A DNA stretch of 46,790 nt. Source: Sphingobacteriales bacterium 44-15. GTDB lineage: Bacteria; Bacteroidota; Bacteroidia; Chitinophagales; Chitinophagaceae. The stretch lies in assembly GCA_001899685.1 (NCBI GenBank), contig MKWG01000035.1:1-46790 (forward strand). The letters run 5' to 3'. The position numbers and the translations under genes are program-made. Every line of letters starts with the position of its first letter. The first letter of the stretch is position 1. Below the pieces are notes generated by a model. It worked only from the letters and a program-made list of their open reading frames with translations, ran no database searches and was not told where the DNA came from. Below, piece after piece: positions 21,264-23,583 of this stretch.

Positions 21264-22850
21264 ATGCTTATTCTACAGGGTGTTTCCTATACTCATCCGA
21301 ATAAAGACCTGCTGTTTGATAATCTCCATCTTACAGTAAACAACCACGATAAAATAGCCTTGATCGGTAATAACGGGACAGGTAAGTCCACCTTATTGAA
21401 AATAATAGCCGGGGAAGTACAACCTTCGGACGGACGATTAATCGTTGATACCAGTCCGTATTTTGTACCGCAGATCTTCGGACAGTTCAATCATCTGACC
21501 ATAGCGCAGGCATTGAAAATTGAAGACAAGACGAAAGCCCTGAAAGAAATTTTAAATGGCAGCGTTTCAGAAGAGCATTTCACTTTGCTTGGCGATGACT
21601 GGACGGTTGAAGAACGCTGCAGCGAAGCTTTGGAATACTGGGGGCTAATGGATCTTGACCTGTCGCAGAAAATAGGAACGTTGAGCGGGGGGCAGAAAAC
21701 GAAAGTTTTTCTTGCAGGCATTGCCGTTTACCGGCCTGAACTTATTTTATTGGACGAACCGAGCAATCACCTGGATATTTCGGGCAGAAAGCTTTTGTAT
21801 GACTTTATTCAATCTACACAAAGTACTCTAATTGTGGTGAGCCACGACAGGCAGTTATTGAACCTGCTGGATACAGTTTGCGAACTGAGCCAACATGGAA
21901 TAAAGGTTTATGGCGGAAACTACGAGTTTTATGCGACGCAAAAGCAAATAGAACAAAACGCTTTGCACCAGGATTTGCAAGACAAAGAGAAAGCATTGCG
22001 GAAAGCCAAAGAAAAAGAGCGTGAAACATCAGAGCGGCAACAAAAATTAGATGCCCGTGGAAAACGGAAACAGGAAAAAGCAGGTGTTGCCCGGATCATG
22101 ATGAATACTTTGAGGAACAGCGCAGAAAACAGCACTTCGAAATTGAAAAACGCTCACGCCGAAAAGATTGAAGGTATTTCGCGGAAGCTGCAGGAGCTCC
22201 GTTCCTCCCTGCCTGATACTGACAAAATGAAATTCGGCTTTGAGCATGCAACATTGCACAAAGGAAAAATCCTCTTTACCGCTGATGGCATTAATGTCAG
22301 TTATGGTCTGCAACTACTTTGGGCAGAAAACATGGAATTTCAAATTAAAAGCGGTGAACGTATCGCTTTAAAAGGGTTGAACGGCTCAGGAAAGACCACA
22401 CTGATCAAACTCATCTTAGGCAGCATGGCGCCGCAAACAGGCGCCGTTCACAAAGCAGACGTTCAGGCTGTTTATATTGACCAGGATTATTCCCTCATTC
22501 ATAATCAATTTACTGTTTACGAACAAGCACAAAAGTTCAATACCACCGCGTTACAGGAGCATGAAGTAAAAATCAGGCTTAGCCGGTTTTTATTCAGGAA
22601 AGAAGATTGGGATAAATCTTGCAGTATTTTGAGCGGCGGCGAAAAAATGCGTTTAATGCTATGCTGTCTGATCATAAGCAATAATTCACCAGACATTATA
22701 ATTTTAGACGAACCGACCAATAACCTGGATATACAAAACATTGAAATACTGACCAACGCTGTTAATGAATACCAGGGAACCCTGATTGTTGTTTCACACG
22801 ATGAATATTTTCTGCAACAGACAGGCATAGAAAGGGTGATCCAGCTTTAA
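21264..22850 (+). CDS. ABC-F family ATPase (ribosome-associated)
   Basis: 528 residues with two ABC cassettes and no membrane segments. The first has GNNGTGKST (35-43), LSGGQKTKV and LILLDEPSNHLD. The second has GLNGSGKTT, LSGGEKMRL and IIILDEPTNNLD. A charged linker of about 90 residues (KEKERETSERQQKL, then ARGKRKQEKAG and NAHAEKIEGISRKLQEL) lies between them. ABC-F proteins bind the ribosomal E site and act as translation factors or protect against ribosome-targeting antibiotics. The long linker is compatible with the resistance type, but the exact subgroup cannot be told by reading. The 210 bases upstream contain no evident promoter box. The 22851-22926 region downstream is AT-rich without a clear terminator. 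Confidence 0.93.
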   Translation: MLILQGVSYTHPNKDLLFDNLHLTVNNHDKIALIGNNGTGKSTLLKIIAGEVQPSDGRLIVDTSPYFVPQIFGQFNHLTIAQALKIEDKTKALKEILNGSVSEEHFTLLGDDWTVEERCSEALEYWGLMDLDLSQKIGTLSGGQKTKVFLAGIAVYRPELILLDEPSNHLDISGRKLLYDFIQSTQSTLIVVSHDRQLLNLLDTVCELSQHGIKVYGGNYEFYATQKQIEQNALHQDLQDKEKALRKAKEKERETSERQQKLDARGKRKQEKAGVARIMMNTLRNSAENSTSKLKNAHAEKIEGISRKLQELRSSLPDTDKMKFGFEHATLHKGKILFTADGINVSYGLQLLWAENMEFQIKSGERIALKGLNGSGKTTLIKLILGSMAPQTGAVHKADVQAVYIDQDYSLIHNQFTVYEQAQKFNTTALQEHEVKIRLSRFLFRKEDWDKSCSILSGGEKMRLMLCCLIISNNSPDIIILDEPTNNLDIQNIEILTNAVNEYQGTLIVVSHDEYFLQQTGIERVIQL

Positions 22851-22926
22851 CAAATAATTTATCCAGGCTGTATGATATACCGGTTAGATATAAGTTAATG
22901 TTCTAACCTGACACCTATATATTTCG

Positions 22927-22934
22927 TACTTTTG
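22927..22934 (+). promoter_or_regulatory. Bacteroidota -7 promoter box ahead of the structured RNA
   Basis: TACTTTTG fits TAnnTTTG. Transcription would begin at about 22938-22942, some 250 bases before the GreA/Rnk-like start codon, at the left edge of the helix-rich region. Confidence 0.55.
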
Positions 22935-22939
22935 CTCAA

Positions 22940-23152
22940 ATGCACAGGCATAGATTTAACCATATCATTTATTACTCTGATTCCACGTTATCCTTTAACC
23001 GCATTGTTCCTTTTGCGGGTAGGCGTCTCTATGCCTTTTCAAATCTCAAAGACTTCAATAAGTAGGCCCCGGCAACTGCTTTAAGTTCCGGGGGATATAA
23101 ATGTATGCTTTGCCTGGTGGCAAAGTAGATTGGTATGTTGTTAGCACATACC
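22940..23152 (+). ncRNA. Candidate structured RNA (5' leader or small RNA)
   Basis: Five helices follow each other closely. AGGCATAGA (22946-22954) pairs perfectly with TCTATGCCT (23028-23036) and encloses CCGCA (22999-23003) with TGCGG (23014-23018). CCCCGG plus AACT (23067-23077) pairs with AGTT plus CCGGGG (23084-23093), with one bulged C. CTTTGCC (23108-23114) pairs with GGCAAAG (23119-23125) over a TGGT loop. GGTATGT (23132-23138) pairs with ACATACC (23146-23152). A promoter box sits just before it and the coding region starts 35 bases after it. I do not recognise a known RNA family. A 41-codon reading frame (22940-23065) overlaps the first half and may be chance or a leader peptide. Confidence 0.5.
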
Positions 23153-23187
23153 TGTAATTATTTTATTTATATCAATTAAAATTTACA

Positions 23188-23583
23188 ATGGAAAACAGGT
23201 TCATATTACTGGATGAAGACCATAAGCTACTTACACAAGCGCTGGAAACCGATAAGCGCTTCGCTTTATTGAGCGATGCAGAAAGAAACGGCATTAAAAA
23301 CAGGCTTACCAATGCAGAACTGGTAACAACAGCAGACTTTCCCAATAATGTTTCCCGGCTGTATGACGTTATAACGCTCCGGAATATTCATTTACGGCAG
23401 AACATCCAGTACAAGGTCGTTCCGCCCGATGAAAGAGATGACTGGAAGGGAAAAATATCAGCGATCTCCCCGCTGGGTATCCTGCTGATGGGTGTTACCA
23501 ACGGGCAGTCCATCGTATTGCAAACCAACAAAAAGAAGAAGCATTATGTAGTTATGGAAGTCCGCAACGCGATGTATATATAA
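23188..23583 (+). CDS. GreA/GreB C-terminal-domain protein (Rnk-like)
   Basis: 131 residues. A short N-terminal helical part (HKLLTQALETDKRFALL) precedes a GreA/GreB C-terminal-type beta domain: VSRLYDVITLRNIHLRQNIQ, then YKVVPPDERDDWKGKISAIS and PLGILLMGVTNGQSI. The segment ISAISPLGILLMG is the FKBP-like signature shared by GreA, GreB and Rnk. The long coiled-coil of Gre factors is missing, so this is closer to Rnk, which binds RNA polymerase in enterobacteria. No name is certain. It follows the helix-rich RNA region and may be controlled by it. A long hairpin starts 21 bases after the stop. Confidence 0.78.
   Translation: MENRFILLDEDHKLLTQALETDKRFALLSDAERNGIKNRLTNAELVTTADFPNNVSRLYDVITLRNIHLRQNIQYKVVPPDERDDWKGKISAISPLGILLMGVTNGQSIVLQTNKKKKHYVVMEVRNAMYI

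Follow-up and report, generated by a model that had tools for sequence, protein, structure and literature searches.

In this study, the question was what occupies the interval between the end of an ABC-F gene (22850) and the start of a 131-residue gene (23188) in the window, a 46,790-nucleotide stretch of DNA from Sphingobacteriales bacterium 44-15. Near relatives of this genome were Terrimonas sp. NS-102 (87% identity) and Pseudoflavitalea rhizosphaerae, and the window is hence Terrimonas-like. The interval was found to be a leader, and its features all lie on the + strand. A promoter -7-like box of the TAnnTTTG type, TACTTTTG, is located at 22927..22934. The ATG of a small ORF of 41 codons, MHRHRFNHIIYYSDSTLSFNRIVPFAGRRLYAFSNLKDFNK (22940..23065, stop TAG at 23063-23065), lies 5 nt 3' of this box, and the small ORF is therefore probably leaderless. 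The ORF ends in the conserved peptide motif YAFSNLKDFNK (23030..23062), for which comparison of leaders gave the family core S-x-x-K-(D/A)-F. Hairpin P1 (CCCCGG..CCGGGG, 23067..23093, pairing 23067-72 with 23088-93) is supported by covariation, and its 5' arm begins 13 nt past the first base of the last Phe codon. Helix P2 (23094..23173, pairing 23094-23102 with 23165-23173) encloses a domain with hairpins P3 (CTTTGCC / GGCAAAG, 23108..23125, pairing 23108-14 with 23119-25) and P4 (GGTATGT / ACATACC, 23132..23152, pairing 23132-38 with 23146-52); these three helices were compared in seven leaders. P4 is weakly terminator-like, and its terminator-like pattern is present on both strands. An earlier note on this DNA had pointed out the box, the 41-codon frame, the helices and a gene start 35 bases after 23152. 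All were borne out, the helices P1–P4 by covariation in the seven leaders.

The gene after the leader (23188..23583, 131 aa), presumed to be the regulated one, encodes an Rnk-like protein with a GreA/GreB C-terminal domain (Pfam PF01272, 3.1e-11). This was the only domain found in the protein (residues 58-126 of 131); a GreA N-terminal domain was not detected, and the protein scored under the NCBIfam cut-offs for GreA and for nucleoside diphosphate kinase regulator. A profile of the protein and 12 relatives matched PDB 2pn0 and 3bmb (regulator of nucleoside diphosphate kinase), GreA, and Gfh1. The ABC-F protein encoded directly 5' of the leader (21264-22850) scored 392 bits, with a cut-off of 380, for an NCBIfam ribosomal-protection-like ABC-F family. 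Its gene was considered as a partner of the leader and rejected. No such ORF was present in about 1.36 kb upstream of the leaders of two relatives (G006 and G002), so the neighbourhood in the window was taken as incidental.

The folding of the region was compared with shuffled sequence. The 261-nt stretch 22927-23187 folded at -67.6 kcal/mol, whereas 200 dinucleotide shuffles averaged -52.7 kcal/mol (z -3.3) and none of them did as well; the z of the 213-nt core was -2.3. Among 78 window stretches of the same size, taken every 600 bases regardless of coding content and with 30 shuffles each, 2 were at z ≤ -3 and 8 lay below the core. The helix density had earlier been described as far above that of the rest of the window, and this description was not confirmed, given those 8 stretches; folding energy alone is therefore weak evidence. 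The region is singled out by comparative evidence, and folding energy alone would not single it out. A long-range helix in the predicted fold (22946-54/23028-36) was partly kept in the two nearest relatives and not seen in G013, in a by-eye comparison of few relatives. A search with Rfam 15 gave no match at gathering score in the whole window, in agreement with the earlier remark that no known riboswitch could be recognised. At E ≤ 10, the interval 22850-23250 gave six matches, every one far under gathering score, and the sole match in 20 leader loci was a tRNA.

Leaders of relatives were found with protein and DNA searches of 58 and 98 relatives, and occurred before gre-like genes in several relative genomes. 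Twelve aligned leaders shared a gapless block with the frame x-x-x-S-x-x-K-D-F followed by a GC hairpin. The frame was open through K-D-F in all 12, and a start codon lay 3-8 nt past a TAnnTT(T/C)G box in 9 of them, the exceptions being L014, L017, and L018. With a covariance model of motif and hairpin, 115 of 394 family genomes had a match at E ≤ 0.1; at E ≤ 1e-3, the model gave 97 places in 87 of the 394 genomes. Among the matches listed, 110 at E ≤ 0.0111 were taken, and the counts rest on the 97 with E ≤ 1e-3, which include 11 of the 12 model-building leaders. A recognisable peptide was absent in about half of the 13 weaker matches (above E 1e-3). Since the 97 places were picked by a model of motif and hairpin, the figures for motif, spacing and hairpin are partly selected. 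A possible second copy in the window's own genome, matching at E 0.0035, was not leader-like on reading, and another match at E 0.59 was left unread. No plasmid relatives were found.

The small ORF carried the marks of a coding sequence. Among 95 distinct leaders, the motif was Y70/F11 - Y65/F18 - F56/Y16 - S86/P9 - N44/S28/T19 - F68 - K93 - D80/A15 - F94. The third codon position was the most variable one at S, K, and the last F; the D/A position differs, its third base being conserved too. In three pairs among the window, G006, and G002, pS was 0.39-0.54 and pN 0.09-0.19, and in the pair G013/G274, with few changes, pS was 0.11 and pN 0.05. An in-frame start 3-8 nt past a TAnnTT(T/C)G box was present in 71 of the 97 leaders, against 0 of 97 for each of the other frames, and the start and box positions lie outside the block covered by the search model. 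The box-plus-start pattern was seen at the next downstream gene in 1 of 97 places, with the gene start taken mechanically. The strict pattern was missing in 26 of the 97 leaders. The codon signature and the position of the start thus indicate that a small ORF of coding type is conserved ahead of the gene.

To our knowledge, Bacteroidota do without Shine-Dalgarno sequences. The geometry of -7 boxes in this phylum implies that the leader mRNA would begin at or near the ATG of the small ORF. According to the available text of two transcriptome maps, very short or absent 5' untranslated regions are rare in Bacteroidota, at ~3.7% and 5.5% (PMC7366714, PMC9723704). The usual -33 TTTG was not enriched upstream of the boxes (6 of 71; two adjacent stretches gave 9 of 71 and 7 of 71). 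The 71 aligned leaders showed T-rich positions 26-28 nt before the -7-like box and an A/T-rich stretch immediately 5' of it. With that TTTG missing, these features could belong to a distinct type of promoter.

Hairpin P1 was examined in 98 model matches (95 distinct), one of which is a weak second match in L132. On the 95 distinct rows, in an alignment that was fitted to the model and hence leans towards the structure, 97.1% of cells were paired and 5 of 6 pairs had both-side changes. Such changes occupied 41 cells against 6.3 in shuffles. Covariation was 0.278 against 0.102 in shuffled alignments, with 0 of 500 shuffles as high, and the signal was destroyed when the partner was slid. When arm starts between 9 and 17 nt from the first base of the Phe codon were allowed, P1 began at 13 nt in 67 of 97 leaders and within 12-14 nt in 90. 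In 22 leaders, the stop codon came before the hairpin arm, 2 or 3 codons past the Phe; in the other 75, it came 7 to 18 codons past the Phe. Hairpin and spacing are thus kept both in leaders with a translated arm and in those without. These figures argue that RNA structure is conserved at a ribosomal distance from the conserved end of the ORF. Programmed frameshifting was considered from the spacing; no slippery heptamer was seen.

The purifying selection on the peptide would also suit a product that acts in trans, with the hairpin behind the ORF serving only as an mRNA-stability element. In one large group of relatives, conservation reaches well upstream of the motif (..CYTCSFTEFLPF..), which favours such a peptide. 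Against it, the start-to-K length varies from 8 to 48 codons across leaders, a spread that fits a function confined to the end close to the peptidyl transferase centre. The RNA distance between the shared residues and the hairpin is also nearly fixed, which a trans-acting peptide would not need. A trans-acting peptide was therefore considered unlikely, and a leader peptide that acts in cis was preferred.

Helices P1–P4 were analysed together in seven leaders of the window's branch, including the window, in a MAFFT alignment with the structure taken from the window. L175 was excluded from this set; its peptide and P1 were present, and its P2–P4 region did not look alike. The covariation score was 0.304 against 0.172 in shuffled alignments, and 0 of 500 shuffles were as high. 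Both-side changes occurred in 1 of 6 pairs of P1, 1 of 9 of P2, 4 of 7 of P3, and 3 of 7 of P4 in these seven leaders. P2 was the weakest helix, with 82.5% of cells paired. The number of further pair types in P1–P4 was not above that of shuffles (135 of 500) in the seven leaders. The earlier note had named two outcomes that would speak against its proposal, namely no covariation in related genomes, or conservation of the frame as protein with no conserved helices. Neither was found: covariation was present, and helices were conserved along with the peptide frame.

The covariation of P1–P4 in the window's branch would fit a pure RNA regulator, that is, a riboswitch or a protein-binding leader with an incidental frame. 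A precedent exists in the leader RNA GraL, which is tied to the regulation of greA in E. coli; autoregulation of greA by way of GraL is reported in the available text of that source (PMC6829880). The codon-position signature, pN below pS and the in-frame starts (71 of 97 leaders, against 0 of 97 in each other frame) speak against an incidental frame, and the support for P2–P4 is limited to the window's branch, the one branch checked. A pure RNA regulator was hence judged quite improbable. The present element resembles GraL as the leader of a Gre-factor gene and differs from it in its host, E. coli being a distant organism; the two were set apart by description. We know of no conserved peptide that forms part of GraL.

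The motif is rich in aromatic residues, and 54 of 97 leaders had five of them in the nine motif positions. An amino-acid attenuator could account for this if charged Phe or Tyr tRNA were measured and stalling at the aromatic codons controlled a terminator. For Flavobacteriaceae, the available text of PMC9723704 describes attenuation by leader peptides ahead of amino-acid operons, and conserved 5' elements ahead of pheA. The leaders themselves spoke against attenuation of this kind. A single Phe was near-invariant, Ser and Lys were about equally conserved, and 44 of 97 leaders had two or fewer Phe in the motif. Leaders outside the family such as SSKDFIK* had one Phe, a run of codons for a sensed amino acid was not found in the 97 leaders, and none of the downstream gene types seen belonged to aromatic biosynthesis. 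Neither the inconstant aromatic content nor the kind of genes downstream suits Phe/Tyr attenuation, which is therefore less likely. A classical terminator/antiterminator mechanism was not supported either. A run of at least five T within 20 nt of the hairpin was present in 13 of 97 leaders, so a U tract was not consistent, and no partner for the hairpin arms was above shuffles (mean z -0.11 to -0.25). An intrinsic terminator with a U tract and a competing antiterminator was thus not found, P4 in the window being the weakly terminator-like hairpin. Taken together, amino-acid attenuation was regarded as improbable, and ribosome pausing at the leader peptide was preferred. Pairing between the motif codons and the start region of the next gene was examined in 59 loci and gave -7.91 against -7.18 kcal/mol in permuted pairs, with 0 of 60 permutations as low. 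This pairing was no better than that of other windows in the same loci and was dropped.

The genes after the leader were recurrent. In 94 of 97 places, the strand of the leader carried at least one of five gene types after it, with a downstream stretch of 0.9 to 3.1 kb examined (median 3.0) and with four of the five types defined from these same 97 loci. A Gre-like gene on the same strand followed the leader in 66 of 97 places, and none was found upstream or antisense within the stretches examined (upstream median 0.6 kb). A membrane-anchored protein of the glutamate-synthase-domain type followed in 23 of 97 (PF01645 in a representative), a protein of cluster c1 in 31 of 97, and a small protein with two transmembrane segments in 20 of 97, the last class being approximate, by clustering and size. 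The c1 proteins (e.g., L078, L085) have about 155-195 aa, and two representatives gave no Pfam match above cut-off. A sodium/hydrogen exchanger (PF00999, CPA1-type) followed in 5 of 97 places (L106, L114, L121, L149, and L153), which suggests a wider regulon. None of the five types was seen in three places (G069, G239, and G257 C203). The earlier note had left the type of regulator between a cis-acting leader sensing a ligand or translation rate, with leader-peptide attenuation as another option, and a free small RNA. The leader-peptide option is supported, since the frame is conserved at the protein level and the hairpin at the RNA level. The recurrent genes in 94 of 97 places and the translated look of the core speak against a free small RNA.

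As judged from the comparison of leaders, the coding motif, the predicted hairpin at ribosomal distance and the gene set are conserved together. The element is fairly probably a cis-acting leader-peptide regulator, in which a pause at S-x-x-K-(D/A)-F beside the hairpin would set downstream expression; we infer pause, signal and output from the sequences. The ribosome would translate the leaderless small ORF. The distance between the start of the P-site codon and the point where mRNA enters the ribosome is about 13 nt. A ribosome with the Phe codon in its P site would thus have the hairpin at this entry, and the nascent motif and the hairpin may jointly make it pause. Pausing at K-(D/A)-F is favoured because the 13-nt geometry and the constant motif with a variable remainder resemble arrest peptides. 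The length of the pause would vary with a cellular condition, which may be the state of translation or the binding of a metabolite or drug to the ribosome. It would in turn determine, through transcription, translation or mRNA stability, the amount of the downstream Gre/Rnk-like gene product. In the window's branch, the P2–P4 domain would relay the pause to the start region of the gene.

TnaC, ErmCL/ErmBL, SecM, and MifM are known leaders in which a short ORF has a C-terminal end that is critical and is closely followed by RNA structure. The present element is like these arrest-peptide leaders in having a short ORF, a C-terminal motif and a downstream RNA structure. It differs from them in the motif S-x-x-K-(D/A)-F, the leaderless-type start and the downstream genes, and here arrest is predicted. 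Among elements of the same phylum, Bacteroid-trp (RF01692), a cis-regulatory 5' element, appears in a table of PMC2864571. The 5' elements of pheA and hisG are described as cis-regulatory, some with leader peptides, in the available text of PMC9723704. The present element shares the phylum and the cis-regulatory 5' position with these three; it has no Rfam match, no codon run for one amino acid, other downstream genes and no clear terminator, and was set apart from them by description.

The distribution outside the family was investigated with a second model. Of 248 order genomes, 18 matched, 16 of them family members; of 395 class genomes, 15 matched, 13 of them outside the family. Fifteen outside-family loci were read, of which 7 were leader-like before gre-like or glutamate-synthase-like genes and 8 were not, and 2 were left unread. 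In family f61, 27 of 151 genomes matched at E ≤ 1e-3. Many of the 24 matches inspected, of 31 listed, had ..SSKDFIK* or similar before gre-like or, by eye, glutamate-synthase-type genes. The core was kept despite the loss of most aromatic residues (SSKDFIK*, SNNKAFVI*).

A protein-led test was performed on 25 outside-family Rnk-like loci. L230 was excluded as GreA-like, and further Rnk-like matches were not among the 25. K-(A/D)-F with a strong helix at 12-13 nt was found within 700 nt upstream in 6 of the 25; the two controls, the opposite strand and the downstream side, each gave 0 of 25. Pattern and thresholds were fixed after viewing the same loci, so the controls weigh more than the 6. 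The other 19 loci were without such an element within 700 nt. In L207, peptide and hairpin were present, and the strict spacing rule failed since the helix extends further. The peptides in outside-family Rnk-like loci ended in ..SHNKAFIN*, ..SNNKAFVI*, ..SNNKAFVF*, and similar strings. In the whole window, the same scan for motif and helix gave the leader and one more place, on the minus strand near 2070.

A wider reading can be offered tentatively. Several Bacteroidia families may share a class of leaderless leader peptides with S-x-x-K-(D/A)-F as a new arrest motif and a hairpin at the mRNA entry, which would sense the state of the ribosome. Its regulon would comprise Rnk-like factors that bind RNA polymerase, glutamate-synthase-like enzymes anchored in the membrane, small membrane proteins and, in certain species, a sodium/proton antiporter. 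In the accessible part of the open-licence literature, no description of the element was found, and the peptide strings matched no paper. If the reading is true, a conserved, probably leaderless peptide tied to a hairpin before Gre/Rnk-type genes would provide a testable link between translation state and transcription in Bacteroidota, and the motif would be a defined candidate for a new arrest motif.

Two further arrangements of leaders were observed. In L237 (G991:C1:1487933-1488013), the leader peptide seems to carry the motif twice (..SRKAFINKLPFFSNNKDFNN). L240 and L258 (G976:C2:497087-497386) are two tandem leaders about 230 bases apart, followed by one gene resembling the glutamate-synthase type.
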